A stretch of DNA of 64,000 nt. Source: Phycisphaeraceae bacterium (GTDB lineage Bacteria; Planctomycetota; Phycisphaerae; Phycisphaerales; UBA1924). The stretch lies in the NCBI GenBank assembly GCA_019636795.1, contig JAHBWW010000002.1, forward strand, positions 248,001 to 312,000, read 5' to 3'. Position numbers and translations under genes: made by a program. Numbering within the stretch: position 1 is the stretch's first letter; the number at the start of each line of letters is the position of its first letter. The notes under the pieces are model-generated. The model saw nothing but the letters and a program-made list of their open reading frames with translations. It did no database searches and had not been told where the DNA came from. Shown here one piece after another: positions 2,520-64,000 of this stretch.

Positions 2520-2534
2520 GCAAAGGAGCAGGTG

Positions 2535-2765: not shown

Positions 2766-2791
2766 GTGAAACTGACCCGAGGAGATCGGAC

Positions 2792-3016
2792 ATGTGGACG
2801 CTTGCAACAGATATCGAAGGTGAACACATCGCGCTGATCGCGATCGTGGGCGGGCTGCTGTTCGTGACGATGCTGTCGCTGGGCGGCCTGGTCAAGTCGG
2901 TGCTTGCAAGGCGGCAGGTTGAACAGTCGCGGCGAGAAATCGCGGCGTATGTGGCTGAGGGATCGATGACGCCGGACGATGCGGAACGTCTGCTCAACTC
3001 GGGGCCGAGGATCTGA
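2792..3016 (+). CDS. Small membrane protein with SHOCT-like tail (copy 3 of 3)
   Basis: A 74-residue paralogue: transmembrane helix at residues ~11-35, then SRREIAAYVAEGSMTP followed by DDAERLL. A TTG start at 2762 is possible, but GAGGAG just upstream of the ATG at 2792 matches the arrangement in copies 1 and 2. Its 3' end overlaps the 3' end of the convergent debranching-enzyme gene by 23 bases. Function is unknown. Confidence 0.7.
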   Translation: MWTLATDIEGEHIALIAIVGGLLFVTMLSLGGLVKSVLARRQVEQSRREIAAYVAEGSMTPDDAERLLNSGPRI

Positions 3017-5006: not shown

Positions 5007-5136
5007 GGCGAGGAGGGTGGGTGTTGAGACAGGGTAGGACAGGCGGTTTTGGGCGGATCGAAGAAGATTGCGGACTTCGAGCACTTGACAGGGGATGATG
5101 CGCGACGAACCCTCTCTCATGGGTACACTGACGGCA

Positions 5137-6681
5137 ATGCAAGATGACTTTCTGACGGATCCGGCTGCTGGCAAGATTGCTGCGGAAGGCATCACGTTTG
5201 ATGATGTTCTGCTGCTGCCGCGGCGGAGCGCGATCCTGCCGGCCGATGCGGATGTGCGAACGCGACTGACGCGGAACGTGCAGATCCGCATTCCGCTGGT
5301 GTCGGCCCCGATGGATACGGTGACGGAGAGCGCGCTGGCCATTGCGCTGGCGCAGGAGGGCGGCGTCGGGATCATTCACAAGAACATGCCGGCCGAGGCG
5401 CAGGCGCGCGAGGTGGCGAAGGTCAAGCGATCGGCCAATGGGGTGATCAGCGATCCGATCACGCTCGGACCCGACGACACGATCGGGCGGGCCAAGACGC
5501 TGATGCGCGAGCATCATGTCTCGGGCTTTCCGGTGACGACCGATGGCTCGCGTGATATCCGAACGCGCGGGCGCGTGGTGGGCATTCTGACACGGCGCGA
5601 TCTGAAGTTCGGCGTTGATGAAACCACGCGGGTGGGCGACGTGATGACTTCGCAGGGGCTCATCACCGCTCCGCCGCAGACGACGCTCGAACAGGCCGAG
5701 GTTATTCTCAATGCCAACAAGGTCGAGAAGCTGCTGCTGGTCGATGACAAGTTTCATCTGGCGGGGCTGATCACGATGCGGGATATCGAGCGACAGTCGC
5801 GCTTCCCGCAGGCTTGCACGGATTCCCGCGGGCGATTGATCTGCGGTGCTGCGGTCGGGCCGGATCAGCACGAGCGTGTCGATGCGTTGATCGCTGCCGG
5901 GGTCGATGTGCTGGTGGTTGATACTGCGCATGGCCATTCGGAGAATGTGCTTCGGATGGTTCGTGAGGTCAAGGCGCGGCACGCGATCGATGTCATCGCG
6001 GGCAATATTGCGACGGCCGAGGCTGCGATTGATCTGATCGACGCGGGGGCAGATGCGATCAAGGTGGGCATCGGTCCCGGGTCTATCTGCACGACGCGCG
6101 TTGTGACGGGCGTTGGCGTGCCTCAGATCACAGCCATTCTGAACGCGGTGCGCGGGGTGGAAGCGACGGGAACGGACGTACCGGTCATTGCCGACGGCGG
6201 GATCAGGCTCAGTGGTGATATTTCCAAGGCGATCGGCGCAGGCGCGAGCACGGTCATGCTGGGAAGCCTCTTCGCGGGGCTTGATGAAAGCCCAGGCGAG
6301 ATGGTGATCTCGGGCGGGCGTCGCTACAAGTCGTATCGCGGGATGGGTTCGGAAGGCGCCATGATGAAGGGTTCGGCCGACCGATATCGGCAGTCGGACA
6401 AGCTGGACGCTTCGGGCAGGCCCGCGATGAAGTTCGTCCCCGAAGGGGTCGAGGGACTTGTGCCGTATCGCGGTTCTCTTGCTGAGTTTGTGTATCAACT
6501 TGTAGGGGGGCTTCGTTCGGCGATGGGGTATTGCGGGTGCGCGACGATCGAAGCGTTGCGAACGGATGCACGGTTCTGTCGTGTGTCGGCAGCCACGCGG
6601 GTCGAGAATCATCCACACGATATCAAGATCACGAAAGAATCTCCCAACTACACCTGGGAGCAGGGTCACGACGGCGGCTGA
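5137..6681 (+). CDS. guaB: IMP dehydrogenase
   Basis: Oxidises IMP to XMP with NAD+, the committed step of GMP synthesis. The 514 residues include [10 protein letters not shown] at the N-terminus, a CBS-domain pair at residues ~95-215, the loop GPGSICTTR with catalytic Cys318, [11 protein letters not shown], and the flap region [11 protein letters not shown]. In-frame starts at 5095 and 5119 would extend the protein. The ATG at 5137 (MQDDFL) fits the family length, and a perfect TTGACA at 5085-5090 suggests promoter sequence lies upstream. Transcribed toward the Bax1-like gene. Confidence 0.96.
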
Positions 6682-48157: not shown

Positions 48158-48229
48158 GCGGGTGTAGTTCAGCGGTAGAACGTCAGCTTCCCAAGCTGAA
48201 TGTCGTCGGTTCGATTCCGATCACCCGCT
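48158..48229 (+). tRNA. tRNA-Gly (anticodon CCC)
   Basis: A 72-base cloverleaf: acceptor GCGGGTG pairs with CACCCGC, D-arm GTTC/GAAC, anticodon stem TCAGC/GCTGA with loop TTCCCAA (anticodon CCC), T-arm GTCGG/CCGAT with TTCGATT loop, discriminator T. CCA is not encoded. The 3' end faces the integrase gene 118 bp away, so this tRNA is the likely integration site of the mobile element. Confidence 0.95.
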
Positions 48230-48304
48230 TTGTTCACAATTCTGGCTGAGTCCGCGACTTGCGGAAACCCGCCAACCGGCGGCGCAGCCCGAAACGCCAA
48301 AATC

Positions 48305-48347: not shown

Positions 48348-49727
48348 ATGTCTCAAAATGCAAACCGGCCACCCTCGTATCGGAAGCGTTCTGGCTACGA
48401 CCAAGCCATCGTCACACTCACCGACGCTGTCACGAAGCGCCGCCGCGACTACTGGCTTGGTGAGTATGGCTCGCCCGCCAGCCGAGAGCGCTACCACCGC
48501 CTCATCGCCGCGTGGGAAGCGAGTAGCCGACGCCACCCCGACCCCGCCGACGCCGGAATCGAGCGCGGCGCTTCCGCGCAGGCCGAAGCAGTCGACGGAC
48601 GCCCGACCGTAGCGATGGTGATCGCCGCCTACTGGCGCTGGGCGCAGCGGTACTACCAGCCGAACGAGTCGGGCACGCTGCGGGTGGTGCTGCGGATGCT
48701 CCGGCAGTACCACGGCAGCGAGGCGGCCGAGAACTTCGGGCCCAAGAAGCTCCGGGCGCTCCGCGAGGCAATGATCGCCAGCGACGACACCTGCGACCCG
48801 CCACGCCCGGCGTGGTCGCGCGGGTACATCAACCAGCAGGTGCAGCGGCTGCGCCGGATGTTCCGCTGGGCCGCATCACAGGAGATGATCCCGGCGTCCG
48901 TCTACCAGGCGCTCGATACGGTGGAGGCGCTCAAGCGTGGGCGCACCTCGGCGCGAGAGGGCAAGAAGGTTGCCCCGGTCCCGCAGGAGCGCGTGGACGC
49001 CGTCCGGCCATTCGTGAGCAGGCAGGTCGCCGCCGTGATTGATCTCCAATTGCTCACCGGCGCTCGGCCGGGCGAGCTGCTCGGGATGCGTCCATCTGAC
49101 ATCGAGCAGCGAATGTGCGTTGGCGACGAGCTTGCGGTTTGGCTGTTCCGCCCGAGAGAACACAAGAATCAGTTCCGCTCGATGGAACGGACGATCGTGC
49201 TCGGGCCACGGGCCCAGGCCGTACTCCAGCCATTCCTTGAGGGCCGCGATCAAGAGTCATTCGTGTTCAGCCCGGCGGAAGCCGAAGCGGAGCGCCGGGC
49301 GGCGGCCAACGCGGCCCGCAAGACACCGCTCTCGTGCGGCAACCGGATTGGGACGAATCGATCGCTGGATCCGGAGCGGGCGGTTGGCGACCGATACACA
49401 ACCGCGAGCTACTACGTCGCGATCCGCCGGGCGTGCGACCGAGCCTTTCCCCCACCGCCCCCGCTCGGGCGGCGAGAGGTCGAGACGGTGGCCGACTGGC
49501 GGGCCCGGCTGACCCCGAAGCAGAAGGCCGACCAGGCGGCGTGGCAGAAAGCCCACCGCTGGCACCCGCACCAACTCCGGCACACCGCCGCAACCGAGAT
49601 CCGCCGGGCCTTCGGCCTCGAGGCCGCCCAGTTGGCGCTCGGCCACTCCTCGGCCCAGGTCACCGACGCGGTCTACGCCGAGCGGGACCACGGCAAGGTG
49701 GCAGAGATCATGCGGCAGGTGGGGTGA
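48348..49727 (+). CDS. Tyrosine recombinase/integrase
   Basis: Catalyses site-specific integration and excision of the element. The 459-residue protein has an N-terminal SAM-like core-binding region (residues ~85-190) and the catalytic domain with Arg240 in LTGARPGELLGM, His408-Arg411 in WHPHQLRHTAATEIRR, His in LGHSS and the nucleophile Tyr443 in VYAERDHGK. An inserted Ala/Arg/Pro-rich stretch (residues ~310-385) makes the catalytic domain longer than usual. It stands directly next to tRNA-Gly, transcribed away from it. Confidence 0.95.
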   Translation: MSQNANRPPSYRKRSGYDQAIVTLTDAVTKRRRDYWLGEYGSPASRERYHRLIAAWEASSRRHPDPADAGIERGASAQAEAVDGRPTVAMVIAAYWRWAQRYYQPNESGTLRVVLRMLRQYHGSEAAENFGPKKLRALREAMIASDDTCDPPRPAWSRGYINQQVQRLRRMFRWAASQEMIPASVYQALDTVEALKRGRTSAREGKKVAPVPQERVDAVRPFVSRQVAAVIDLQLLTGARPGELLGMRPSDIEQRMCVGDELAVWLFRPREHKNQFRSMERTIVLGPRAQAVLQPFLEGRDQESFVFSPAEAEAERRAAANAARKTPLSCGNRIGTNRSLDPERAVGDRYTTASYYVAIRRACDRAFPPPPPLGRREVETVADWRARLTPKQKADQAAWQKAHRWHPHQLRHTAATEIRRAFGLEAAQLALGHSSAQVTDAVYAERDHGKVAEIMRQVG

Positions 49728-49861: not shown

Positions 49862-50836
49862 ATGGCAACCGCACAACAACTCAAGGCTCTCATCTCGAGC
49901 TACGCCGAGGGTGACCGTGCGCGCTTCCTTTCCGTCGCCTCTCAGATCTCTGCGCACGCGGCAAAGTCGGGAAACCGCAAGCTCGCTGATGAGCTCAGGC
50001 ACCTCGTAGATTCCGTGCGGCGCGCCACCGATGCTGAGCCCGACCGGCGGACCGTACCGATTGCACAGCCGACCGGTGAGCTGAGCGGTCTGATCGCGGC
50101 CTCGTTTCCTAAGACGACGCTTCGTGACATGATTTTGCCGGCGGATCTGCGGGACCGCCTGACGCGCGTGCTGCGTGAGTACCGCCAAGCCGACCAGCTA
50201 GCCGATCACGGTCTCTCGCCGCGAAGGAAACTTCTCCTTCTTGGCCCGCCGGGCTGCGGCAAGACGATGACCGCAGCGTGCCTGGCCGGGGAACTCCAGT
50301 TGCCTCTTCTGACCGTTCAGTTTCACACGATGATCACGAAGTACCTGGGGGAAACGGCGGCCAAATTGCGGCTCGTGTTTGACATGATGCGAGATCGCCG
50401 TGGCGTCTACCTGTTTGACGAGTTCGACGCCATCGCATCGCAGCGGTACGGTGGCCAGGATGTCGGGGAAATTCGCCGCGTTCTCAATGCCTTTCTCGTG
50501 TTCATTGAGAGCGACCGGTCGGACAGTCTCTTGGTAGCGGCCAGCAATCTAGCGCCAACCATTGACGCTGCGGTGTTTCGGCGATTTGACGATGTGCTCA
50601 CTTACGAGATGCCTGCGGCGGGGATGGCGAGAGAGCTCATCGAGCGACGGCTTGGGTCTTTTGTCCCCGACCGACCGAACTGGAAGAGGATTGCAGATTT
50701 GGCCGCGGGTCTATCCCACGCTGAAATTGTTCAGGCATGTGATGACGCAGCCAAGGACGCAGTTTTGGACGGTCGCGATAAGACCACTGCAGCGGCGTTA
50801 CAGCAAGCGATTGCACGGCGACACCATCGCGGTTGA
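49862..50836 (+). CDS. AAA-family ATPase, IetA-like (partner of subtilase)
   Basis: A 324-residue ATPase. Residues 128-135 are Walker A (GPPGCGKT), and FDEFD (Asp186/Glu187) forms Walker B. LLVAASNLAPTIDAAVFRRFDD has the sensor-1 Asn and an arginine-finger-like pair. The N-terminal ~90 residues are a helical domain. Pairing with a downstream subtilase is the arrangement of IetAS, reported as a plasmid-exclusion pair in Agrobacterium and later as an anti-phage system. GAGGAG precedes the ATG at 49862. Its stop almost touches the next start. Confidence 0.85.
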   Translation: MATAQQLKALISSYAEGDRARFLSVASQISAHAAKSGNRKLADELRHLVDSVRRATDAEPDRRTVPIAQPTGELSGLIAASFPKTTLRDMILPADLRDRLTRVLREYRQADQLADHGLSPRRKLLLLGPPGCGKTMTAACLAGELQLPLLTVQFHTMITKYLGETAAKLRLVFDMMRDRRGVYLFDEFDAIASQRYGGQDVGEIRRVLNAFLVFIESDRSDSLLVAASNLAPTIDAAVFRRFDDVLTYEMPAAGMARELIERRLGSFVPDRPNWKRIADLAAGLSHAEIVQACDDAAKDAVLDGRDKTTAAALQQAIARRHHRG

Positions 50837-50853
50837 TCGGGGGTCTGAGGTTG

Positions 50854-53352
50854 ATGGATCGTTTTAAGCACATTGACATCAACGACCCCGGCGATCGGCG
50901 CGACTACACGCGACCTCGCGGAGGCGGAGGCGGCGAGTACCGCGTTCCGCCCCGTGATGATCGAGTTGGGCATGGCCAGCGACTGATAAATCAGATCACA
51001 TCTGTCCGGGAGGATCTAGGTCGTCAAGCTGACGTATCAGGTCACACGATCCACAACGTGCTGCTAGATGTCGTCGGCCCGACTAAAGACCTTCAGCTGG
51101 CTAGCTTGGAATCACTTTACAAGGGAATCGAGCTCCGTTCGGCCACGTCCCGGGAAGGGCGTACCTACGCAACGGTCTATGTCCCGGAGCGTCGTCTGGG
51201 CGAATTCATTAAGAAGATTGAAGCGTACATGGGTGAGGAGAGGACGAGAAAGGGGCGTCCGCTCAACGAACCGCTGGTGGCGGGCATTGACGAGGTCCGC
51301 ATACCGGTCCTGAAGTCGTTCTGGACAGATGACAGTGATCTATTTCCAACGGATGCGCAGACGCCGATTTGGTGGGAGGTATGGCTTCAACGACGCGTTG
51401 ATGATGAGGAAGACACCGCGTTTGTCGAGTTCGCATCCATCGCAAGCAACAGCGGCCTTCGAGTTGGGACGAATGTTCTTCACTTTAAGGAGCGGCTCGT
51501 ATTTCATGTTCATGGAACAGTTCGTCAATGGACCACGGTCTTCGTGCCTTTGCTGGATAGGCTGGCAGAACTGCGGAAGGCCAAGGAAGTCGCGAGCGAG
51601 TTTCTTCGGATACAACCCCGCGACCAGCGACAACTCATCGAAGATCTTGTTCAGAGACTAACAGTCCCGCCGACAACGGCCCCGGCCATCTGCGTGCTCG
51701 ACTACGGGGTGTCGAAGGAGCACCCGCTGCTTTCCCCTTTCTTGTCGCCCGAAGATCAGCACGCCTTGGACCCGGCTTGGACCAAAGTAGACCATCGCAA
51801 TGGTCATGGTTCCGAAATGGCAGGGCTTGGCGTGTATGGCGACGAGCTTCCGCGTTTGCTTGGAAGCAACGACCTGCCGTTGACGCCGCATCGTGTCGAG
51901 TCCGTGAGGATCCTCAACGACTCCAGCCCCAATCCAGAGGACACATGGGGCTGGGTGACCCAAGAAGGGGTTGCGCGAGCTGAGCAGGCTGCTCCAGAGC
52001 GCCCCCGAGTTGTACTGCTGGCAGTGACTGCCAATGACCGAGGGCGCGACTTCGGCTATCCGACGTCCTGGTCAGCGGCGATCGATCAGAGCGCGGCCGG
52101 CGAACTCGATGATTCACGGCGTCTCTTTGTCGTATCAGCAGGCAATATCCGCACAATTCAGGACGAGGCTGCAGATCGCTACCCGACGGCGAATCTTGAA
52201 GAACATCGGATTGAGGATCCTGCTCAGGCGTGGAATGCGTTGTCGGTCGGGGCATGTACGGAAATGATCCAGATCCGCGATGAAGGTTTGGCTGGGCACA
52301 CACCCCTGGCAAAGCAAGGCGAGTTGTGCCCCACATCGCGCACGTCCGTGTCTTGGCCAGACCAGGAATGGCCAATCAAGCCTGACATTGTCATGGAAGG
52401 TGGAAACTACACCCGTTCGCCCTCTGGCAGTGTGCATGCGACGGAAGATCTGTGTCTTCTTACCGCTTCAGGTTCTACCGTGGGAAATCTCCTCGCATGG
52501 ACATCTGACACCAGCGCTGCTGCGGCACAGGCAGCTCGGATGGCCGCGATCCTGCAATCAGAGTACCCGCACCTTTGGCCGGAAACTCTCCGCGCAATGC
52601 TCGTACATTCTGCGGCGTGGACACCAGCAATGGTCGCTCAGGTCCCAGGGGATCTCCAATCCGACAAGCACCGCCGGCTCCGCTGCTTTGGGTACGGCCG
52701 GCCGGACCTCGATCGCGCTCGGTTCACACTTCGGAATCGCGTCGCCCTGGTCCATCAGGGCCAGTTGCAGCCGTTTGAACGTGTCCGCGAGAACCGCGAG
52801 TTGAAGATCCGGACCAAAGACTTTCGATTGCACGCTCTACCTTGGCCGGCTGACGCGCTAGCTGGCCTCCATGAGATAGGTGCTCGCCTGCGCATAACGC
52901 TGTCATATTTCATCGAGCCAAGCCCCGGAAGGCGGGGTTGGAAGCAAAGATTTCGCTATCAGTCACATGGACTCCGCTTCAAGCTCCGTGGTCCGACGGA
53001 GACGGAGGAGATGTTTCGGCAGCGCATCAGCCAAGAGGAATGGGATGAGGATGGTGGTCGGCCTTCGACTGCGGATCCTATTCCATGGGCTCTTGGGTCC
53101 AACCTGCAGACGAGGGGATCCGTCCATTCTGACTGGTGGGACGCGACGGGCGCAGACCTTGCAGCTTGTGGCCAGATAGCCGTGTACCCGGTGACCGGCT
53201 GGTGGCGTGAACGGCCTCACTTGGGCAAGGTGGACAGCATTGCGCGGTATGCACTGGTGGTGACCATCGAGACGGAAGCGGAGGATTGCGACCTCTACAG
53301 TCCAATCGTCAACCAGCTCGCTACGCCGGTGACGATCGAGGTCGATGCCTAG
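50854..53352 (+). CDS. S8-family (subtilisin-like) protease, IetS-like
   Basis: An 832-residue serine protease without a signal peptide, so cytoplasmic. The catalytic triad is visible in a central domain: Asp283 in VLDYGVSKEHPLL, His318 in HGSEMAG and Ser554 in SDTSAAAAQAA (a variant of GTSxAAP). The N-terminal ~270 residues are an unassigned regulatory region and the C-terminal ~230 residues look beta-rich. An in-frame TTG at 50833 overlaps the ATPase stop; the ATG at 50854, preceded by TGAGG, was chosen. The pair is likely one operon. Confidence 0.85.
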   Translation: MDRFKHIDINDPGDRRDYTRPRGGGGGEYRVPPRDDRVGHGQRLINQITSVREDLGRQADVSGHTIHNVLLDVVGPTKDLQLASLESLYKGIELRSATSREGRTYATVYVPERRLGEFIKKIEAYMGEERTRKGRPLNEPLVAGIDEVRIPVLKSFWTDDSDLFPTDAQTPIWWEVWLQRRVDDEEDTAFVEFASIASNSGLRVGTNVLHFKERLVFHVHGTVRQWTTVFVPLLDRLAELRKAKEVASEFLRIQPRDQRQLIEDLVQRLTVPPTTAPAICVLDYGVSKEHPLLSPFLSPEDQHALDPAWTKVDHRNGHGSEMAGLGVYGDELPRLLGSNDLPLTPHRVESVRILNDSSPNPEDTWGWVTQEGVARAEQAAPERPRVVLLAVTANDRGRDFGYPTSWSAAIDQSAAGELDDSRRLFVVSAGNIRTIQDEAADRYPTANLEEHRIEDPAQAWNALSVGACTEMIQIRDEGLAGHTPLAKQGELCPTSRTSVSWPDQEWPIKPDIVMEGGNYTRSPSGSVHATEDLCLLTASGSTVGNLLAWTSDTSAAAAQAARMAAILQSEYPHLWPETLRAMLVHSAAWTPAMVAQVPGDLQSDKHRRLRCFGYGRPDLDRARFTLRNRVALVHQGQLQPFERVRENRELKIRTKDFRLHALPWPADALAGLHEIGARLRITLSYFIEPSPGRRGWKQRFRYQSHGLRFKLRGPTETEEMFRQRISQEEWDEDGGRPSTADPIPWALGSNLQTRGSVHSDWWDATGADLAACGQIAVYPVTGWWRERPHLGKVDSIARYALVVTIETEAEDCDLYSPIVNQLATPVTIEVDA

Positions 53353-53383: not shown

Positions 53384-53498
53384 CGAGTTACCACCTTAAC
53401 GTCGACCAAGAAAATATTCTCCCTTTCTACGGCCCTCCTAGCACGGGAGGGCCGTTGTCGTTGGTGGGCTGAGCGGTAACTCGAGTTACCGAGTTACC
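53384..53498. repeat. Repeated CGAGTTACC motifs, one in a 16-bp palindrome
   Basis: CGAGTTACC occurs at 53384-53392, 53482-53490 and 53490-53498. The second lies in the perfect palindrome GGTAACTCGAGTTACC (53475-53490). They flank the terminator behind the subtilase gene and precede the DUF1580 genes, a pattern expected of operators for an element-encoded regulator. Confidence 0.55.
53430..53454 (+). terminator. Strong hairpin after the subtilase gene
   Basis: CGGCCCTCC and its exact complement GGAGGGCCG with a 7-base loop, followed by TTGTCGTTGG. It starts 78 bases after the subtilase stop, so it probably insulates the ATPase/protease operon from the genes beyond. Confidence 0.65.
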
Positions 53499-53789: not shown

Positions 53790-54105
53790 GTATCTGCTCT
53801 GATCTTAAGAAATCTCCGCACGCTCAAGGCTCAGAAGTGCTGACGTAACACTTGTTGCAGCGCCTTTCCGGTCTGGCGCGTACTTCGCAAGCGGCCGCAT
53901 GTGCGCAGTTACACATTCTATTGCCGCGAAAAAAACTTTAACTGCATGACTGTTCAAATGCTGTGATATATGCACGAAAACGCCACCTTGAGTGCGGAAA
54001 TGCCTTGTGAGGTAGTACTCGCGAGCATTTTTTAGTTACATGTCAAATTCCTGAGAGACAATGCACTCCGATTCGAAAAATCGCAATCTACGGAGGATGA
54101 CCGTT
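53790..54105. other. AT-richer non-coding gap between DUF1580 genes
   Basis: No open frame with coding character was seen. The stretch is distinctly more AT-rich than its surroundings, especially 53925-54060 (runs of A and T, for example around 53925-53940). It probably contains promoter and regulatory sequence for the DUF1580 gene at 54106 and perhaps the replication genes. Confidence 0.5.
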
Positions 54106-54546
54106 ATGTTTGATGAGCCCAGCAGAACCACAAACAACGACATGCCAGCGGACGCGGCTGGCGAGACCAAGTATCTCTCGCTCGCCGAAGCAGCGAAATT
54201 CGCGCCGGGCAGACCTACCCCGAATTGTGTCTGGCGCTGGTGCCGAAAGGGTGTGCAGACGCGAGGCGGCGAACGGGTGAGGCTGAAGCATGCTCGCTTC
54301 GGCGGCAAGATTTTCACCACCCGCGTGTGGCTTCATTCTTTCGCCGAAGCCTTGGCAGAGCGAGATGCTGAGTATTTCTCGCTTGATGATGAGCGCGTGT
54401 TGCCACGCGATCTAGCTCACTTGCGCGAGCATGAAACACACGATGTTGCACCTCCTCGTTCATCACCAAGAAGCAAAGGGCACTTGAATCGGCTGAGCAT
54501 TGCGCACGAGCATGCCGAGGCCGAGCTGAAAGCGGCGGGAATTTGA
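54106..54546 (+). CDS. DUF1580 family protein, putative DNA-binding regulator/excisionase
   Basis: A 146-residue protein with the planctomycete DUF1580 pattern: YLSLAEAAKFAPGRPTPN, then CVWRWCRKGVQ, RVRLKHARFGGKIFTT and VWLHSFAEALAER. The SLAEAAK...WRWCRKGV segment resembles the MerR/AlpA/excisionase helix-turn-helix, so it may bind att or operator DNA; this is inference. GGAGG nine bases before the ATG at 54106 was preferred over the ATGs at 54061 and 54097. It precedes the primase gene by 64 bases. A C-terminal basic tail (PRSSPRSKGHLNR) follows the domain. Confidence 0.7.
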   Translation: MFDEPSRTTNNDMPADAAGETKYLSLAEAAKFAPGRPTPNCVWRWCRKGVQTRGGERVRLKHARFGGKIFTTRVWLHSFAEALAERDAEYFSLDDERVLPRDLAHLREHETHDVAPPRSSPRSKGHLNRLSIAHEHAEAELKAAGI

Positions 54547-54610: not shown

Positions 54611-56995
54611 GTGAGCGATCGGCCTGCCGTTGCCCTTGCCGCCATTCCCGCAGCCCTAAGCGAGCGTGCGCAGTGGGTGTGCTGGAAGTACATCAACCGG
54701 GGCGGCAAGCAGACCAAGTGCCCCTTCAGTGCGCGGGGTGGCGGGCGCGCGGATTCGACTGATCCCGCGACCTGGGCGTCGTTCGATGAGGCAGTCGCGG
54801 CATGGAAGACGGGCGGGTACGCGGGGATCGGGTACGTCTTTGCAGGAGACGACCCCTTCTGCGGCATCGATCTCGACGACTGCATCGACGAGACCGGGAC
54901 CATCGTGTCGGCCGCGCGCGAGATCATCGATTCACTGAACTCATACACCGAGGTCTCCCCCAGCGGGCGTGGCGTGAAGGTGTTTCTCGCCGGGCGCAAG
55001 CCCGACGGGGTCGGCTGCAAGTCGAAGGCGATCGCCGGGTTCAAGGAAACCGAGGTCTACGACCGGGATCGGTTCTTCACCGTCACCGGGCAGCGGGTGC
55101 TTGACACTCCCACCGAGGTCGAGGAGCGGCAGGCTGCACTCGACGCGCTTTGCATGCGGCTGTGGCCCAAGAAGCAGAAGCCGAGCGTGAATGGGACCCT
55201 CGTTGCGGCCGGATTCGGGGGCGATGACGAGGCGCTGATCAAGCGGGCCAGCGAGGCGAAGAACGGTGACCGCTTCAATACTTTGTGGGCGGGCGACACG
55301 TCGCTGCATGCTGATGATGCCAGCGGCGCGGACCAGGCGCTGTGCAACCTGCTCGCCTTCTGGACCGGCAAGGACGCCGCCCGCATTGATCGGCTGTTTC
55401 GACGCTCGGGCCTGTTCCGTGAAAAATGGGACGAGCGGCGCGGTGCGCGGACCTACGGGCAGATGACCATCGAGAGGGCCATCGCGGATTGCCGCGAGAC
55501 GTACTCGCCGCGCCGCCGCGCTGCGCCGTCGGCGTCCGCCCCTGGCGACCCCGCTCAATCAGAGCCCGACGAAGGCGGCGACCTGCTCGTGCCCCTCGGC
55601 CAGCCGGACCCCGCGACCGGCCGCCTCGTGCTTTCACCCCGGCGCACGCTTCCGACCGCCGAGGCCTATGCCCGCGAGTTCAACCAGCACGCCGATGGCC
55701 GCACCCTGCATGGGTATGGGGGGCTTCTGATGGAGTGGCGGGGGAATCGCTACTGCCAAGTCGAGGAGGAGTGGCTCAAGCAGCGGCTCCAGCCCTGGCT
55801 GCACAAGGCGCTGCGGTACGTGCTCAACAAGCAGACGGGCGAGATGGAGCTCGTGGACTTCGAGTCCAACCCGACGACCGTCAAGCAGGCCCTCGACACG
55901 ATCCGTTCGTTCGTCCATCTCCCGGCCTCGACGGTCTCTCCATCGTGGCTTGGCGGCGGGACCAACCGACCGCCCGCGCTGGAACTGCTGCCGTGCAAGT
56001 CGATGAACCTGCACATCCCGACGGGGCGCATCCTCGCGCCCACTCCCGCGCTGTTCACCATCAACGCGCTCGACTTCGATTACGAGCCCGACCCTGAGCC
56101 GCCCGATCGGTGGATCAAGTTTCTCGAGCAGTTGTTCGGCGATGATCTCGAATCTGTGCAACTGCTTCAAGAGTGGATGGGCTACTGCCTCACGGGCGAC
56201 ACCAGCCAACAGAAGATGCTGCTCCTCGTGGGGCCGAGAAGGTCGGGCAAGGGCACGATCGGACGCATCATCACCCGCCTCGTCGGCGCTGGCAACGTCG
56301 TCGGGCCCACCACCAGCAGTCTCGCTGGCAATTTTGGTCTGCAGCCTCTCATCGAGAAGTCGCTCGCCATTGTCAGCGATGCCCGCTTCGGCGGCGAGAA
56401 CGTCGGCACGGTCGTCGAACGCCTGCTGTGCATCTCCGGCGAAGACACACTCACCATCGACCGCAAGTTTCTCGGCTCCGTCAGCATGAAGCTGCCCACA
56501 AGGTTTATGTTTTTGACCAACGAACTGCCCCGGCTCAACGACGCCAGCACGGCACTCGCTGGCCGCTTCCTCGTCCTGCGGCTCACACACAGCTTCTACG
56601 GCCACGAAGACGTGACGCTCACCGACCAACTGCTTGCTGAACTGCCCGGCATCCTGCACTGGGCGATTGATGGGTGGAAGCGGCTCCATGCACGCGGTCG
56701 GTTCATCCAGCCCGCCAGCAGCGAGGATGCAATGCGCGATATCGAGGATCTGGCCTCGCCCGTCGGGGCCTTCATCCGCGACCGCTGTGTTGTCGGCGCC
56801 GGTCATCGGGCATGGGTGGATGACCTTTACAGCGCATGGAAGACCTGGTGCGAACAGGACGGGCGCACGGCCGTCAGCACCAAGCAGGCCTTCGGTCGCG
56901 ATCTCTTGGCCTCAGCCCCCGGCGTGGCCCGCCGGCGCGGCACGGGCATGGTGTCCTTCTACGAGGGAATCGGCCTGGCGGGAGGTGCGCCATGA
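54611..56995 (+). CDS. Phage/satellite replication protein: primase-polymerase plus SF3 helicase
   Basis: A 794-residue protein for initiating element replication. The N-terminal ~250 residues match the AEP-type/NrS-1-like primase-polymerase: QWVCWKY, GIGYVFAGDDPFCGIDLDDC (metal Asp pair) and SPSGRGVKVF. The middle (~260-480) contains a D5-N-like region. The C-terminal SF3 helicase has Walker A (LLVGPRRSGKGTIGR), Walker B-like LAIVSDARFGG and sensor FMFLTNELPRL. The start is GTG with GGAGGCGA upstream. It corresponds to the pri-rep position in phage satellites. Confidence 0.88.
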   Translation: MSDRPAVALAAIPAALSERAQWVCWKYINRGGKQTKCPFSARGGGRADSTDPATWASFDEAVAAWKTGGYAGIGYVFAGDDPFCGIDLDDCIDETGTIVSAAREIIDSLNSYTEVSPSGRGVKVFLAGRKPDGVGCKSKAIAGFKETEVYDRDRFFTVTGQRVLDTPTEVEERQAALDALCMRLWPKKQKPSVNGTLVAAGFGGDDEALIKRASEAKNGDRFNTLWAGDTSLHADDASGADQALCNLLAFWTGKDAARIDRLFRRSGLFREKWDERRGARTYGQMTIERAIADCRETYSPRRRAAPSASAPGDPAQSEPDEGGDLLVPLGQPDPATGRLVLSPRRTLPTAEAYAREFNQHADGRTLHGYGGLLMEWRGNRYCQVEEEWLKQRLQPWLHKALRYVLNKQTGEMELVDFESNPTTVKQALDTIRSFVHLPASTVSPSWLGGGTNRPPALELLPCKSMNLHIPTGRILAPTPALFTINALDFDYEPDPEPPDRWIKFLEQLFGDDLESVQLLQEWMGYCLTGDTSQQKMLLLVGPRRSGKGTIGRIITRLVGAGNVVGPTTSSLAGNFGLQPLIEKSLAIVSDARFGGENVGTVVERLLCISGEDTLTIDRKFLGSVSMKLPTRFMFLTNELPRLNDASTALAGRFLVLRLTHSFYGHEDVTLTDQLLAELPGILHWAIDGWKRLHARGRFIQPASSEDAMRDIEDLASPVGAFIRDRCVVGAGHRAWVDDLYSAWKTWCEQDGRTAVSTKQAFGRDLLASAPGVARRRGTGMVSFYEGIGLAGGAP

Positions 56996-57319
56996 ACCAT
57001 GCTACTGCTGCGCACTGTCGCAGACTGTCGCGACAGTCCCAATTGCACACAACCTCGTTCCGCGTGCGTGCGCGCGCCCGCGCGCGTGCGTGTATAGGTA
57101 ACAATTGCAACTGTCGTGACAGTGCGCGACAGTACGCGACAGCTGCGGCCCTCCATATCACCTCAAGCCGAGGGGCAGCCGAGGGGGAGGGGGGGTCAGA
57201 AACATTTCGGCTCGCGCGGATACCAACGCGTGGTGCCACGCATTTTTCGTTCAGGGTTTTGTATACGCCCCCCGGGGGGGGCTGGTTCGTGTGGATGGAT
57301 TCGCACAAGGAGACGTTCA
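56996..57319. other. Candidate replication origin: palindromes, 8-bp repeats, Pu/Py tract, G-runs
   Basis: Non-coding stretch behind the primase gene. ACTGTCGCGACAGT (57024-57037) and ACTGTCGTGACAGT (57110-57123) are near-identical palindromes, with half-sites at 57014-57021, 57126-57133 and 57136-57143. CAATTGCA occurs at 57040-57047 and 57102-57109. Between them lies an alternating purine/pyrimidine tract (57061-57096, CG/TG steps). Downstream are G-runs (57172-57195) and a C6G8 block (57268-57281). Iterons next to a primase/helicase gene suggest an origin. Confidence 0.55.
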
Positions 57320-58648
57320 ATGACGACGATTCGTGATCGGGTTCGGGAGTTGCGGCGGGTGCGGGCTGGCGATCTGCGGCCTAGCCCGCGCAACTGGCGC
57401 ACGCACCCCAAGGCGCAGCAGGACGTGCTGCGCGGTGTGCTGGCCGAGATCGGCTACGCTGACGCGCTGCTGTGCCGCGAGTGTGAAGACGGGACGCTCG
57501 AGATCGTCGACGGACATCTGCGTGCCGAGACGACGCCGGAAGATGTGGTGCCGGTGCTTGTGCTTGATGTCGACGCGATCGAGGCGGAGAAGCTGCTCGT
57601 GACGCTTGATCCGCTGGCAGCGATGGCTTCGGCTGACGCGATGCGTCTCGGCGAGATTCTTGCAGAGCTCAGGTTCGACTCCGACGACGTCAGCACGATG
57701 GTGGGCGATCTTGCTCGTCAGCATGGACTGATGCTCGGCGGCGACGTGATCGAGCCGCCGATCCCGCTGCCGCCCGATGATCCGATCACGCGGCCCGGCG
57801 ACCTGTGGCTGCTCGGCAGACACAGGCTGCTCTGCGGCGACAGCGGCGATGTTGCACCTCTCGATCGCCTGCTCGACGGCGCGGTGATCGATCTGGTCCA
57901 CATGGATCCGCCGTACAACGTCAAGGTCGAGCCGCGCTCAAACAACGCGATCGCCGCGGGCAACAGCTCGTTCAGCAAGCAGCAGACGCATCACCAGAGC
58001 ATGGATCTGGCGCGTCATCCCGAGAAGGCCCAGCCGACGACGACGAAGATGCGCGCCAAGGACCGGCCTCTGGCCAACGACTTCGTCACCGACGACGCCT
58101 TCGACGCGCTGCTGCTGGCGTGGTTTGCCAACGCGGCGCGGGTGCTCAAGCCCGGCGGGTCGTTCTACGTCTGGGGCGGCTATGCCAATCTCGGCAACTA
58201 TCCCGGCCCGCTTGAAGCCTGCGGGCTCTACTTCAGCCAGGCCATCGTCTGGGACAAGCTGCACCCGGTGCTGACGCGCAAGGACTTCATGGGCGCGTTC
58301 GAGATCTGCTTCTATGGCTGGAAGCAAGGCGCGGGCCACCACTTCTACGGCCCCAACAACGCTGTCGATCTCTGGCACGTCAAGAAGGTCAACCCGCAGA
58401 GCATGGTGCACCTGACCGAGAAGCCGGTCGAGCTCGCGGCCCGCGCGATCCAGTATTCATCGCAGCCGGGCGAACACGTACTCGATCTCTTCGGCGGCTC
58501 GGGCTCGACGCTGATGGCCTGCGAGCAGCAGGATCGACGCGCCTTCCTGATGGAGCTCGACACGCAGTACTGCGATGTCATCGTGCAGCGCTGGGAGCAG
58601 TTCACCGGACGCAAGGCCGAGCGCGTGCCGGTCGGCGGCGACGCGTGA
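57320..58648 (+). CDS. ParB-like domain fused to DNA adenine/cytosine-N4 methyltransferase
   Basis: A 442-residue protein. Residues ~10-120 form a ParB/Spo0J N-terminal-like domain (LRPSPRNWRTHPKAQQDVL, then EIVDGHLRAE). The methyltransferase has VHMDPPYNVK (DPPY, catalytic) followed by HVLDLFGGSGSTLMACE (SAM motif I), an order typical of the beta class. The target base is adenine or N4-cytosine, site unknown. Such fusions occur in phages. AAGGAGA precedes the ATG at 57320. No cognate restriction enzyme is adjacent, so it is an orphan modification enzyme. Confidence 0.88.
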   Translation: MTTIRDRVRELRRVRAGDLRPSPRNWRTHPKAQQDVLRGVLAEIGYADALLCRECEDGTLEIVDGHLRAETTPEDVVPVLVLDVDAIEAEKLLVTLDPLAAMASADAMRLGEILAELRFDSDDVSTMVGDLARQHGLMLGGDVIEPPIPLPPDDPITRPGDLWLLGRHRLLCGDSGDVAPLDRLLDGAVIDLVHMDPPYNVKVEPRSNNAIAAGNSSFSKQQTHHQSMDLARHPEKAQPTTTKMRAKDRPLANDFVTDDAFDALLLAWFANAARVLKPGGSFYVWGGYANLGNYPGPLEACGLYFSQAIVWDKLHPVLTRKDFMGAFEICFYGWKQGAGHHFYGPNNAVDLWHVKKVNPQSMVHLTEKPVELAARAIQYSSQPGEHVLDLFGGSGSTLMACEQQDRRAFLMELDTQYCDVIVQRWEQFTGRKAERVPVGGDA

Positions 58649-58662
58649 TGGAGGAGTGAGCG

Positions 58663-59205
58663 ATGGGAGCACGCGGGCCGCGGCCCACACCGACGCCGAT
58701 TCTCAAGCTGCGCGGCAGCAGGCTCGCCGATCTCAACCGCAACGAGCCGCAGCCCAGAGAGGGCCTCCCCGATGCGCCGGCCTGGCTCGAGGATGAAGCG
58801 CTCGACGTGTGGCACCAGCTCGTGCCGCAGCTCGACGAGATGGGCGTGCTCACCGCGATCGATGGCATGGCGCTGGCGCGCTACTGCACGCTGTGGGTGC
58901 AGTGGGTGCGTGCTGCGATGTTTGTGAATCGACATGGCACGACGTACCCGCTCAAAGATGGCAACGGCAACATCAAGTGCTTTGCGCAGTTTCCGGAGGT
59001 GGCCATCGTCAACAAGCTGTCGCTGGCGCTGTCAAGGCTCGAAGCGGAGTTTGGCTTGACGCCCAGTGCCCGCACGCGCATCAACGTGCCGATCAGACCG
59101 CTGCCGATCGACGCGGCGATGGATGCGTTCTTCAACGGCTCGAACGACTGGATTGAGACGAAGAGAAGGCTGGAGGATCAGGCAGGCGAGACCGATGCAA
59201 AGTGA
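58663..59205 (+). CDS. P27-family phage terminase small subunit
   Basis: A 180-residue DNA-packaging protein that recognises the pac/cos site. GARGPRPTPTPILKLRGS followed by NEPQPREGLPDAPAWL is the N-terminal signature of P27-like small terminases, and LARYCTLWVQWVRA and RLEAEFGLTPSARTRI match the later helical part. The start is 14 bases after the methyltransferase stop. It is not followed by a large subunit; a repeat tract and convergent genes come next. In satellites a lone small terminase redirects helper-phage packaging. Confidence 0.88.
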   Translation: MGARGPRPTPTPILKLRGSRLADLNRNEPQPREGLPDAPAWLEDEALDVWHQLVPQLDEMGVLTAIDGMALARYCTLWVQWVRAAMFVNRHGTTYPLKDGNGNIKCFAQFPEVAIVNKLSLALSRLEAEFGLTPSARTRINVPIRPLPIDAAMDAFFNGSNDWIETKRRLEDQAGETDAK

Positions 59206-59317: not shown

Positions 59318-59941
59318 TCAGGTGCGTGCAACAAACAGCCCGCGATCCGTCTTCGTGAAGCGCGATGCAGCGCCTTTGCTCGCGATCTCGCGGATGATCG
59401 CGGCGTAGAGCGAAGCGTGCGGCGTCTTGCCCGCGCCCGGTGTCCAGAGCTTCTTCTCGATGGCAGCGTCGACGATCGCCTTGGCCTGCATGGGCGTGCT
59501 GGCGTCGGCCAGGACCTCGGCTGCGGCGTCGAGAAGACTCATCCGCTTCACGCTCGGTTCGGCGGACGCCTTCGAGTTGGGCCGGGCAGTGTGGTCGGAG
59601 GTTTTCTTCGCATCCTTGGCCCCGTCGTTGGCCCGTGTCGCGTTCCTGGCCTTCGTCGCGTCCTTGCCCAATCGGACCTCGCCGTTGGCCACACGGGCCG
59701 CATGTTCCGCGTTGTTGGCGGGCGGAGCAACGCCAGCCTCTTCCGCCTCGATGCGGGCGATGTTGGCCTCCGCGATCGCGATCGCCTCCTTGCGGGTGCG
59801 CTCACCCGCAGCCGTGCGCGCGTGCGCGCGGTCGCCAGCCTTCGCAGCAGCCTTCTTGGTGGTCTTGGTGGTTGGCTTTGCTGTAGTCTTCGTCATGGTC
59901 TTCGTCTTGGCCTTCGTCGTGGCCTTCTTGATGGTCGGCAT
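59318..59941 (-). CDS. Histone-H1-like tail with C-terminal HARE-HTH domain
   Basis: A 207-residue DNA-associated protein. The first ~45 residues are almost only Lys, Thr and Ala ([16 protein letters not shown]), like bacterial histone-H1-type tails. A charged helical middle ([17 protein letters not shown]) follows. Residues ~130-207 ([53 protein letters not shown]) match the HARE-HTH winged helix, proposed to connect DNA binding with modified bases. Opposite in direction to terS. The start MPTIKK at 59941 was taken. Role inferred as DNA packaging or regulation. Confidence 0.75.
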
Positions 59942-60031
59942 GATCAACTCCTTCTGTGGGATTCGCAATCCCGCTGCACACCGCAGCGGGCAATCGCAGC
60001 TGGCGCGGTTCCCCGCGACGCCGCGGGGCGC

Positions 60032-61439: not shown

Positions 61440-62024
61440 TCAGTTCGGCCTCATCTTGAGCCTTTGCGTGAGTGCCCAGGTTCGCCATTGCTCGCTTTGG
61501 CTGCGGAGGGCGATATCGTCGAGGAAGCCTGGGGTGCGGTCGTCGGTGCGACCTGTGCGGAGTTGGAGGCGAGCCAATGCCTGGGTGGTTTCGAGGTGGC
61601 CCAGGTAGACGGCCAGTGCGGCGTCGTAGGCGGCGAGGGCTTCGTCGGTGCGACCGGCGCGCTCGAGGACGAGAGCGAGGTTCATGCGCGGGTCGGGATG
61701 GCCGGGCATCAACTTGCGTGCCCATTCAAACTCCGAGGCGGCCTCATAGAGCATGCCGCGCGAGAGGTACACGATGCCGAGGTTGTTGTGGGCGGGGCCA
61801 AAGTACAGATCGGCAGTGAGTGCCTCGCGCAGAAGTTGCTCGGCCCGCTGCTGGTTTTTCTCCATCTGTTCGATGGCCTGTGCTGTGAGTTTCTGCGCGA
61901 GCACAGTGTTGCGGGCCGCTTCAGTCGGTGTTGCATAGGGGCTGTGAGCAGGGCGAGGCTGGGTCGAGCAGCCGCCGCACAGCAACGTGATCAAGACACA
62001 CCAGAACATCACGTTGTGGATCAT
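61440..62024 (-). CDS. TPR-repeat lipoprotein
   Basis: A 194-residue lipoprotein (FWCVLITLLCGGC) with three TPR units (ALTADLYFGPAHNNLGIVYL, YEAASEFEWARKLMPGHPD and DEALAAYDAALAVYLGHLE). It is the last gene of the secretion operon and may help assemble the secretin or pilus complex, like PilF/PilW. Its ATG overlaps the preceding stop by four bases. Confidence 0.8.
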   Translation of the reverse strand: MIHNVMFWCVLITLLCGGCSTQPRPAHSPYATPTEAARNTVLAQKLTAQAIEQMEKNQQRAEQLLREALTADLYFGPAHNNLGIVYLSRGMLYEAASEFEWARKLMPGHPDPRMNLALVLERAGRTDEALAAYDAALAVYLGHLETTQALARLQLRTGRTDDRTPGFLDDIALRSQSEQWRTWALTQRLKMRPN

Positions 62025-62551
62025 CGCTTGATCTCGCTTTCACGCGCGTCGTGCACGGTCATGGTGAGCACTGCCAGCACCGGCAGATCGCCGCCTCGAG
62101 CCGCGTCGGATCGCTGCGGCTTCAAATCGATCGCGGTGATGACCCATCGCGGCTCCTCATCGCGCCACAGACTGAGAAAGCGCCCGAGATCTCGCAGAGA
62201 CGGTGCCTGGAGCGTCAACGTGGCACGGCGTTGGAGAGCCTGGGTCGTGCCGACTGTCTTGAGCACTCGTTCTGATTCCGGCGATACGCTGATGATGGTG
62301 CCGCTGGCCAGACCTGCCCGAGCAACGACCGAGGCGATGCGATTGGCCAGAAGGCGATCGGATATCGGTGCCTGCGCATCAGCCTCGGGCAGTGCGTGCA
62401 GCGCTTCGACATGTCTGGCAATGTCCTGCATGCGCTCGCTTGTCGCGCTTGCCTGCTCGTGTGCGCTTCGCCAGCGCGGCATGGCGCTGAGCACCATGGC
62501 GGCCGATGCCATGATCGACACGGTCCAGATCAGGACAATGCGGCGGGTCAT
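62021..62551 (-). CDS. GspM/PilO-like inner-membrane protein
   Basis: A 176-residue bitopic protein: short cytoplasmic start, one transmembrane helix (IVLIWTVSIMASAAMVLSA), coiled coil, then a ferredoxin-like periplasmic domain (LASGTIISVSPESERVL, RATLTLQAPSLRDLGRFLSL, WVITAIDLKP). This is the architecture of PilO/GspM, which pairs with PilN/GspL in the inner-membrane platform. Sequence identity is too low to be more exact. It overlaps both neighbours by four bases. Confidence 0.7.
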   Translation of the reverse strand: MTRRIVLIWTVSIMASAAMVLSAMPRWRSAHEQASATSERMQDIARHVEALHALPEADAQAPISDRLLANRIASVVARAGLASGTIISVSPESERVLKTVGTTQALQRRATLTLQAPSLRDLGRFLSLWRDEEPRWVITAIDLKPQRSDAARGGDLPVLAVLTMTVHDARESEIKR

Positions 62552-63399
62552 GGGCGAGCCTCCGCGCGGCGAGAGCGGGTGTCGTCGGGCCGCAAGCGCA
62601 GAGCGATGCGAGACAGGCCGCGGGCGCTGCTCAGGCGCGGCTCTTCAAGACGCCAGCCTGCGGGGGCTGAGATCGATTCGAGCAGAGTCGCCGGATCGAC
62701 CGAGGTCGAGACCGCGATCTGGATGTCGGCCTCGGCGACATTGATCGATTCGACAAAGGCATCGGTCGCATCGGGCCAGGCTGAGAGCACCAGCGCCAGC
62801 GTCGTCGTAGCATCGGCTGGCAGGGCAAGAGCCGAGGCCAGTTGCTTGCGATCCTGACGCTGAACGAGTTCACGCTCAAGCGCCTTCGCATCGACATTGG
62901 CATGCGCGAGCATCTGCTCGATGGCAGCCTGGCCACGGTTGGCGCTGACGTGATGCGCCTGCGCACGCCGCTCGAGCCCGAGTGCCGTCATTGCAGCGCA
63001 CACAAGCAGCGCTGCGGCGTACACAGCGTGCCCGACGGTGCGCCGGCGCGTGAGGCTGCGCGGTGCATACCGACCGACGAGGAAGTTCAGACGCGATGGA
63101 TCGAGGTCGCTGTTAAGCCAGTCGGGCAGCGCTGCAGGATGCAGCGAGATGACGTTTCGAGTGGATGGGTCCGACCAGACGTGCCCGATATCTGACGTCG
63201 GAGCCGCGCACACAATGGTCTGGCCGCGCCCGTCGCACGCCGCCACCGCATGCAGCGTGTCGGCATCGCACGGGATATCGGCTGCGGCCTCGTGAAGCAC
63301 TCCGGCGGGCGCAGAGCCGTCCTTGCACCGCACCGGCCACTCGATGACGGACCAGTAGCAGCGGTCCGTGGGCCACACCACATCTCGCTCGCTGCTCAT
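62548..63399 (-). CDS. GspL/PilN-like inner-membrane platform protein
   Basis: A 283-residue protein. A cytoplasmic part (~130 residues) has ILLxN-like short motifs, then a transmembrane helix (AVYAAALLVCAAMTALGL), a coiled coil (AIEQMLAHANVDAKALEREL) and a C-terminal alpha/beta domain (FVESINVAEADIQIAVST). GspL-type proteins join the secretion ATPase to the periplasmic machinery. Placement between GspC-like and GspM-like genes supports the call; the sequence alone is weak evidence. Confidence 0.65.
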   Translation of the reverse strand: MSSERDVVWPTDRCYWSVIEWPVRCKDGSAPAGVLHEAAADIPCDADTLHAVAACDGRGQTIVCAAPTSDIGHVWSDPSTRNVISLHPAALPDWLNSDLDPSRLNFLVGRYAPRSLTRRRTVGHAVYAAALLVCAAMTALGLERRAQAHHVSANRGQAAIEQMLAHANVDAKALERELVQRQDRKQLASALALPADATTTLALVLSAWPDATDAFVESINVAEADIQIAVSTSVDPATLLESISAPAGWRLEEPRLSSARGLSRIALRLRPDDTRSRRAEARP

Positions 63400-63860
63400 G
63401 ACCCGCCTCCGAGCAGTGACAAGGCCACCGTGCGCTCAGCGTCGCGCACGACCACCGTGGACGGATCGATCGACTCGATGACGCGGCCTCGCGCCACCTC
63501 CTGCCCCACGCCCACCGAAATCATCGCATCGCGGTCAGGGTCATAGAGCACCGCGCGCGGCGAGCCGCCTTCGTAGATGATGGCGATCAGTTGCAGTTTG
63601 AGTGGCGGGGGTGGAGGCGGCGGCTTGGGCGCGGCTACCGCGACCGGCGGCGGAGCGACATACCAGATCGGCGCGGCAAAGGCCGCCTGATCGAGTGCTT
63701 CGCGCGCTGCGGCGGCGGGCGGCTCGGTCGCCTGCTGCGCGAGCATCTCAAACTCGACGGCTGCAAGTGGCCACAGCGACCAGATCGACACCGCCACGAG
63801 CACAACGCCGCACACCGCGACATGTCTCTTCCACCCAGGCGCGATCTCGTGCCGGCTCAT
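63396..63860 (-). CDS. GspC/PilP-like protein
   Basis: A 154-residue bitopic protein: transmembrane helix (VAVCGVVLVAVSIWSLWPLA), Ala/Pro-rich linker with a poly-Pro run, then an HR-type domain (LKLQLIAIIYEGGSPRAVLY, SVGVGQEVARGRVIESID, TVVVRDAERTVALSL). This matches the homology region of GspC/PulC that contacts the secretin. It is between gspE and the GspL-like gene, with ATGA overlaps at both ends. Confidence 0.75.
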   Translation of the reverse strand: MSRHEIAPGWKRHVAVCGVVLVAVSIWSLWPLAAVEFEMLAQQATEPPAAAAREALDQAAFAAPIWYVAPPPVAVAAPKPPPPPPPLKLQLIAIIYEGGSPRAVLYDPDRDAMISVGVGQEVARGRVIESIDPSTVVVRDAERTVALSLLGGGS

Positions 63861-64000
63861 GTCGCAAGCTCCTCGCCAGCGTCAATGACACGCGAGAGTT
63901 CGGCGGCAGTGGTGAGGCCCGCAGAGACCAGCGACAGGCCGTGCTCGTGCAGCGTGCGCATGCCGCGCGAGCGGGCCAGCGCCAGGATCTCATTGGCCGG
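63857..64000 (-). CDS. gspE: Secretion/pilus ATPase GspE/PilB, C-terminal fragment (runs off window)
   Basis: Only the last 47 codons lie in the window: ANEILALARSRGMRTLHEHG, then SLVSAGLTTAAELSRVIDAG. This is the conserved C-terminus of GspE/PilB ATPases, whose last helices carry the RxxGMxxLxxxGLxxVxxGxTTxxE pattern. The gene starts beyond 64000. Its stop overlaps the GspC-like ATG, and it is the most upstream visible gene of the operon. Confidence 0.8.
   Translation of the reverse strand, partial: PANEILALARSRGMRTLHEHGLSLVSAGLTTAAELSRVIDAGEELAT

Follow-up and report, generated by a model that had tools for sequence, protein, structure and literature searches.

IetAS is a two-gene system consisting of an AAA ATPase (IetA) and a subtilisin-like protease, or subtilase (IetS). 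The founding pair lies on the conjugative plasmid pTiC58 of the alphaproteobacterium Agrobacterium fabrum C58 and, judged by homology and by the account of pTiC58 given in part of a paper on Salmonella genomic island 1 (SGI1), corresponds to ATU_RS23410/RS23415; the title of reference 29 in that paper attributes stability and incompatibility of the plasmid to this pair (PMC5006074). The passages on sgiAT, a homologue carried by the integrative element SGI1, describe the subtilase SgiT as the toxin and the ATPase SgiA as the antitoxin (PMC5006074). In Pseudomonas aeruginosa, the Pf prophage PfAC08 carries IetAS at a tRNA-Gly, and the sections dealing with it link the system statistically to phage resistance (PMC11878078). 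The mechanism is called undescribed, unknown or not fully elucidated in the relevant passages of three papers (PMC9958689, PMC11878078, PMC12755874). In the literature searched here, mostly outside subscription journals and preprints, we found neither a paper on the IetAS mechanism nor any account of IetAS in planctomycete prophages. Here, we describe an IetAS pair from a stretch of 64,000 nucleotides (the window) of a Phycisphaeraceae bacterium (assembly GCA_019636795.1, contig JAHBWW010000002.1, positions 248,001 to 312,000), where it is cargo beside the integrase of a 35.9-kb integrated prophage-like element in a planctomycete chromosome: a known system in a new carrier, and ordinary in kind.

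The two open reading frames (ORFs) that an original prediction from the bare sequence had placed at this locus were both found at the same positions, and its suggestion of an IetAS-like pair agreed with profiles, alignments and gene order. The PADLOC IetA profile PDLC02196 matched the ATPase (E = 3.4e-71, residues 2–320) and the IetS profile PDLC02198 the protease (E = 3.4e-33, residues 39–831 of an 839-aa reading), both matches being far stronger than chance would give and covering nearly the whole length of the proteins. The pTiC58 pair could be aligned end to end with the window pair (IetA 52% and IetS 39% identity) and has the same catalytic and ATPase motifs and the same gene order, with a gap of 3 nt there and 17 here. 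We found ietA upstream of ietS on the same strand at each of 25 loci from chromosomes, plasmids and phage records and at 53 of 57 viral-contig loci in IMG/VR, the other four being too close to a contig end. By itself the IetA profile is unspecific, as matches with E ≤ 0.001 also occurred in every one of the 14 control genomes, besides five further AAA places of this genome (best 5.4e-39 vs. 1.7e-70 here), and the system is therefore identified by the pair. Two outcomes named beforehand as speaking against the assignment, best matches to housekeeping proteases and a lack of co-occurrence of the genes, were not observed, and on profiles, full-length pTiC58 homology and gene order the assignment to IetAS is well supported. 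The NCBIfam anti-phage equivalogs IteA and IteS (NF042959 and NF042956) scored 211 and 60 bits against cut-offs of 510 and 900, far from reached by this pair, whereas the PADLOC IetAS profiles match. The pTiC58 pair likewise stays below these cut-offs (199 and 40 bits), which places the close kin of the window pair with the pTiC58 kind. In addition, two PHROG families of "unknown function", phrog_3757 and phrog_3964, match IetA (7.1e-85) and IetS (1.2e-40); on these sequence matches, they are probably the IetA and IetS of phages.

Mechanical gene calling starts ietS at TTG 50833 (839 aa), while the reading used here starts at ATG 50854 (832 aa); the resulting N-terminus, MDRFKHID, is also present in the close relative L026 (loci are given L numbers and genomes G numbers). 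The near overlap of the two genes noted earlier thus amounts to a gap of 17 nt with the ATG start, or an overlap of 4 nt with TTG. The "strong terminator" described 3′ of ietS held in part: the hairpin folds well (centroid −22.4 kcal/mol, z −2.3, with 6 of 200 shuffles folding equally well), but the tail that follows, UUGUCGUU, falls short of a clean U-tract, and the hairpin is not among the terminators listed by the terminator scan.

The catalytic triad Asp283/His318/Ser554 reported for the protease is intact, its earlier numbering fitting the ATG start, as is the oxyanion residue Asn431. These four residues were invariant in 43 of 43 aligned copies (alignment A3), a figure that applies to intact copies, since an early stop or the lack of a fitting start excluded a locus from the count, and likewise in a 19-row set (A1). 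A3 comprised the window, L026–L029 and 38 of the 57 viral loci; 39 had a complete ORF over 780 aa, and L174, a near-copy of L173, was dropped. A1 comprised the window, L092 and 17 of the 25 loci L026–L050, leaving out L033–L036 and L048 (distant), L039 (cut), L045 (split gene) and L047. The 57 viral loci include near-identical pairs and are thus not all independent, and L155 is the contig of L092. No hydrophobic N-terminal stretch was found in IetS, the best 19-residue Kyte-Doolittle mean being 0.48 for windows starting in the first 60 residues, in keeping with the predicted absence of a signal peptide and with a predicted cytoplasmic location.

The structure model of IetS (predicted local distance difference test, pLDDT, 85.3; predicted template modelling score 0.76) matched KP-43 (1wmd) with Z 26.6 and 2.9 Å over 376 residues in the model range 272–805, with 5fax tied at Z 26.5. 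In the same fold list, subtilisins without a KP-43-type C-terminal domain aligned over only ~240–250 residues, which suggests that ~130 residues of the KP-43 match in the model lie beyond the core. Mean column identity was 0.53 in the C-terminal domain, 0.54 in the catalytic domain and 0.33–0.44 in the N-terminal parts. The extra parts of IetS are normal for the family, namely a conserved KP-43-like C-terminal domain and a more variable N-terminal part. The original prediction had proposed that either region may carry the trigger sensor and had called for this comparison across homologues. Since conservation of the C-terminal domain equals that of the catalytic one and the model aligns with KP-43 through this part, it is unlikely to be a hypervariable sensor, and the N-terminal part is the better candidate for a sensor or regulator. 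KP-43 is alike in its catalytic and C-terminal parts, whereas IetS is predicted to be cytoplasmic; both KP-43 and ProN-Tk-SP (3afg) are secreted enzymes that are not known to have an ATPase partner.

Residues 172–242 of IetS end just before model residues ~244–262, which match the first residues of mature subtilisins in the fold-search rows. The I9-type prodomain of subtilisins has the strand-helix topology seen in this segment of the model and is located just upstream of the catalytic core, so that the segment would agree with such a prodomain in topology and place only. An I9 prodomain found no support from sequence: Peptidase_S8 was the sole Pfam match at E ≤ 1, with none to Inhibitor_I9, and a profile of the segment gave four weak matches among PDB sequences (best E 0.039), none a subtilase prodomain. 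The best Foldseek match of IetS was 3afg, by its title an N-propeptide form, in an alignment that is not rigid (rmsd 22 Å). Against PDB sequences, a profile of the C-terminal domain gave one chance match (E 0.62) and a whole-IetS profile three matches, all to the subtilase core. The N-terminal parts of the IetA and IetS models gave no separate fold match in lists filled by one domain, which barely probed them, and when viral models were searched by fold, the leading matches were general S8 proteases, none named IetS.

IetA gave a Pfam AAA match of 7.4e-26 and contains Walker A (GPPGCGKT, from residue 128) and Walker B (VYLFDE), both intact as first read, together with a sensor-1 Asn229 and Arg240/241. 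In its model (pLDDT 84.9), a three-helix N-terminal segment (pLDDT mostly 73–83) accompanies an AAA module whose nearest folds are the PAN, Rpt, FtsH, Vps4 and Cdc48 ATPases. The pore-loop aromatic is Phe or Tyr in 30 of 30 aligned copies (A4: the window, L026–L029 and 25 viral loci) and is kept in 21 of 22 copies of another set (A2, leaving out L035, L039, L045, L047 and L048), where L044 has Leu. IetA is predicted to be of the Cdc48/PAN-like type, presumably forming a ring whose pore loops would grip polypeptides.

The carrier is bounded by a 44-bp repeat that corresponds to the 3′ part of a tRNA-Gly gene, the second copy lying 35,861 bp downstream and beyond the window (Table 1). Between the integrase and a DUF1580 protein, which by its position may be excisionase-like, lies a cargo slot occupied by IetAS. 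The G+C content at third codon positions is 0.67 in ietA, 0.62 in ietS and 0.61 in the DUF1580 gene, and 0.81–0.84 in the integrase, primase, methyltransferase and small terminase genes. The primase, methyltransferase and HARE genes recur jointly in IMG/VR contigs and beside related integrases; within the class, 146 of 397 genomes have such an integrase (E ≤ 1e-30). The remainder of the element encodes large proteins and a type II secretion/secretin-like cluster, together with a caspase-like protein close to attR. The proteins scanned, a subset of those encoded by the element, included the small subunit of terminase and a secretin with a match to the M13 pIV family (phrog_1012, 2.1e-40), but no large terminase, portal or capsid protein. 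The carrier resembles PfAC08 in bearing IetAS as cargo at a tRNA-Gly site, as described for PfAC08 in the relevant passages, but the latter is a filamentous Pf phage of an unrelated host. SgiA/SgiT, as far as the description of SGI1 goes, are likewise an ATPase and a subtilase on an integrative element, but SGI1 is mobilized by conjugation, whereas the carrier here has phage-type genes.

Table 1. Features of the ietAS locus and its carrier element (window coordinates).
Feature	Position	Strand	Evidence or remark
tRNA-Gly (anticodon ccc), integration target	48158..48229	+	ARAGORN
attL core, 44-bp perfect direct repeat	48188..48231	+	Second copy G000:C2:332049-332092
Tyrosine integrase of element	48348..49727	+	Pfam Phage_integrase 3.7e-11; PHROG integrase 3.4e-29
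ietA, AAA+ ATPase, 324 aa	49862..50836	+	PADLOC IetA 3.4e-71; model pLDDT 84.9; fold matches; 52% to pTiC58 IetA
ietS, predicted cytoplasmic subtilase (S8), 832 aa from ATG	50854..53352	+	Peptidase_S8 1.9e-51; PADLOC IetS 3.4e-33
IetS residues 172–242, strand-helix-strand-strand-helix-strand segment	51367..51579	+	Model secondary structure, topology only
IetS catalytic domain, residues 277–623	51682..52722	+	Pfam; fold search
IetS C-terminal domain, residues 624–832, fits KP-43 C-terminal part	52723..53349	+	1wmd Z 26.6; 5fax Z 26.5
G+C-rich hairpin 3′ of ietS, possible terminator, weak U-tract	53429..53455	+	Folding; terminator scan
DUF1580 protein, far edge of cargo slot	54061..54546	+	Pfam 5e-6
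Phage-type primase/helicase of element	54611..56995	+	PHROG DNA primase 1.1e-150
ParB-like/DNA methyltransferase of element	57116..58648	+	Pfam; PHROG
Small terminase subunit	58663..59205	+	Pfam Terminase_4 5.6e-22; PHROG 1.1e-29
HARE-HTH protein, recurrent marker of element family	59318..59968	−	Pfam 1.1e-11

The slot was compared in 30 of 47 loci, in addition to the window; the other 17 had no near-complete integrase or no downstream DUF1580 match. As L026 and L127 are the same record (KLAP200; G313, of the same order as the window genome), the set represents 30 distinct elements. IetAS occupies two of the 30 slots, those of the window and of KLAP200 (82% and 76% identity). The L107 slot (1581–5575), beside the integrase closest to that of the window (69% identity), holds Hen1 and Pnkp RNA repair genes (Pfam 5.4e-113 and 2.1e-181), a pair not named as a defence system in a PADLOC run. 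The L116 slot encodes a 2050-aa protein with a partial match to Avs1b (8e-25 over 515 residues), and that of L137, the least certain slot because its DUF1580 match is weak (33% identity), a 909-aa protein with a match to PD-T4-6 in its kinase part and a neighbour of the metallo-β-lactamase fold. Such cargo hints at a defence-type cargo locus. Six of the 30 slots are near empty (190–325 bp), and 19 contain ORFs lacking an assignment or doubtful; cargo was scanned in 11 of the latter, the remaining eight being L108, L111, L113, L122, L125, L130, L131 and L132. Of 36 cargo ORFs of at least 125 aa, four were IetA or IetS; PADLOC was run on 20 of the other 32, and Pfam on 10 of those.

Window and KLAP200 IetS are mutual nearest kin (tree path 0.3 vs. 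1.41 for the next), yet 26 other integrase matches score nearer to the window integrase than that of KLAP200 does, and the latter adjoins tRNA-Asp, not tRNA-Gly. The cargo therefore seems, on these sequence comparisons, to move separately from the integrase. At L092/L155, IetAS lies between the primase and HARE genes of the same element family, and G019 (L034) has its IetAS, of a second and distant type, beyond the methyltransferase/HARE genes; these other positions fit an element family that has captured IetAS more than once. Two recurrences were seen among other slot genes: a 305-aa gene with nearly the same sequence start is present in the slots of L124 (1523–2440), L130 and L131 from different genomes, the L124 copy giving no Pfam or PADLOC match, and the main slot gene of L125 resembles one in L082 by its sequence start.

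Several observations concern the rest of the element. The type II secretion/secretin-like cluster comprises GspE, a secretin and GspL/GspM-like genes; it is located between the two 44-bp att repeats and extends from 61440–64000 of the window onward to ~316 kb of G000:C2 (L011, 9440–15830). Copies are present at C4:431058-437347 (6.3 kb, 99.5% DNA identity) and, diverged, at C2:559578-566477 (81%). The latter belongs to a second diverged stretch of the same genome, G000:C2:554779-580329 (L150, L151), where the gene order of the element recurs, from methyltransferase, small terminase and HARE to the secretion cluster, large proteins and the attR-side gene; within C2:538000-593800, neither an integrase nor a primase or IetAS match was found with it. 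Secretin matches were obtained in all 61 genomes searched, several with multiple closer ones, some of them near contig ends. The secretion cluster appears to belong to a mobile unit present in several copies. In G106 and G024, of the same family (L031 7309–12914 and L032 1319–9119), IetAS is located ~1–3 kb from GspM/GspL-like genes. At the opposite end from IetAS, ~1.7 kb inside attR, a caspase-like (Peptidase C14) gene at G000:C2:329358-330317 (L012, 9358–10317) matches phrog_18397 (1.9e-77) and the PADLOC caspase model (2.5e-21), and is a second candidate defence gene.

By tblastn, 497 of 72,556 plasmid records contain a relative of IetS, with query coverage of 80% or more in 379. Among phage records, 2 of 50,697 were positive, both unannotated. 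The alignment-query search of IMG/VR gave the 57 loci with an IetS relative, unlike a single-sequence IetS scan of viral contigs, in which no match was found. Within the taxonomic family, 8 of 150 genomes have IetS matches, including this genome, three others at 43–44% and four distant ones at 28–31% identity. A quick tree of 61 IetS rows groups the window with planctomycete copies (KLAP200, a Paludisphaera plasmid, G012, G106 and G024) and with IMG/VR 3300033141_005967 (Shimodaira-Hasegawa-like approximate likelihood ratio test support 98). The pair thus differs from that of pTiC58 in belonging to a separate supported tree group as well as in host and carrier. Against KLAP200, nonsynonymous divergence (dN) was 0.13 for IetA and 0.17 for IetS; synonymous sites were saturated, and as the NG86 synonymous estimates were saturated or not computable, the claim is limited to a low dN, which fits purifying selection.

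As to function, we consider it fairly probable that the pair is a restrained-protease IetAS of the pTiC58 kind, carried as cargo of the prophage-like element and serving element maintenance and exclusion. Free IetS, as a cytoplasmic subtilase, would be harmful to the cell, and a ring of IetA, gripping polypeptides through its pore loops, would hold it silent. This balance may be broken by phage takeover, by the entry of a competing element, or by loss of the element and with it IetA. The freed IetS would then cleave proteins of the cell or the invader and stop growth, and the growth stop would halt replication of the phage or rival, with the outcome that the element is kept in the cell and competitors are excluded. 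We favour this switch on account of the SGI1 and Pf-phage reports and of the pTiC58 title.

Several points weigh against this reading. The portions of PMC5006074 on sgiAT state that its own promoter gave no post-segregational killing, that stability over 350 generations in the absence of an IncA/C plasmid was unchanged when it was deleted, and that SGI1 incompatibility was independent of it. The IetAS-bearing Pf in the corresponding part of PMC11878078 is one phage and yielded no lysogens, so that its link to resistance is statistical, not direct. Since the IteA/IteS cut-offs were unmet, phage defence may belong mainly to another subgroup, and with scores that far below, the activity of this copy against phages is something we infer. 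The defence role in the original prediction is therefore qualified: the IetAS identity stands, while the anti-phage role would be an extrapolation from a family whose characterized relatives are toxin-antitoxin or maintenance modules. Furthermore, recognized defence-like or repair genes occupy only 5 of the 30 slots, three of them by partial or indirect matches, a count from which no enrichment is claimed, and in L045 (Rhodococcus) ietS is split into two annotated ORFs.

Rather than being restrained by IetA, IetS might be served by it, in an ATP-dependent protease in which phage or foreign proteins would be unfolded by the IetA ring and passed on to IetS in the manner of FtsH, ClpXP or the PAN-proteasome, with no toxin-antitoxin logic. 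The fold of IetA, nearest to PAN, FtsH, Rpt, Vps4 and Cdc48, the pore-loop aromatic retained in 30 of 30 and 21 of 22 copies, and the pairing of the genes wherever visible would suit such a machine. We nevertheless regard it as unlikely, as the SGI1 subtilase is described in the sgiAT passages as toxic without the ATPase, which relieves the toxicity, the opposite of an obligate activator, and as IetS, to judge from its fold, has an ordinary subtilisin-type domain and no chambered ring. Similarly improbable is a pure addiction or maintenance module without an anti-phage role. This would accord with the nearest characterized relatives, SGI1 and, by title, pTiC58, with the location next to the integrase of an integrated element, and with the unmet anti-phage equivalog cut-offs, but three related elements hold Avs1b-like, PD-T4-6-like kinase and Hen1-Pnkp genes in the same slot, and PADLOC and the relevant part of the Pf-phage study tie the family to phage resistance. 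That the protease is an ordinary secreted or housekeeping subtilase beside an AAA protein by chance, as its fold matches to mostly secreted enzymes such as KP-43 could suggest, we reject as next to impossible given the missing signal peptide, the constant pairing with IetA, the full-length IetS homology and the patchy distribution (8 of 150 family genomes, this one included). Finally, a bolder extension of the restrained-protease reading combines two ideas: in a widespread planctomycete prophage family, the slot would be a standing site of defence exchange whose unassigned single genes are undiscovered defence systems, and IetS would be a zymogen-like cytosolic protease with a prodomain-like module that the IetA pore grips or releases as the switch. 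We hold this combination to be doubtful.

The locus extends the range of IetAS to planctomycete prophage-like elements. The slot adjacent to the integrase is a concrete place to seek new defence genes in a poorly studied phylum, and the reading of the IetS domains offers a testable idea for the mechanism of IetAS.

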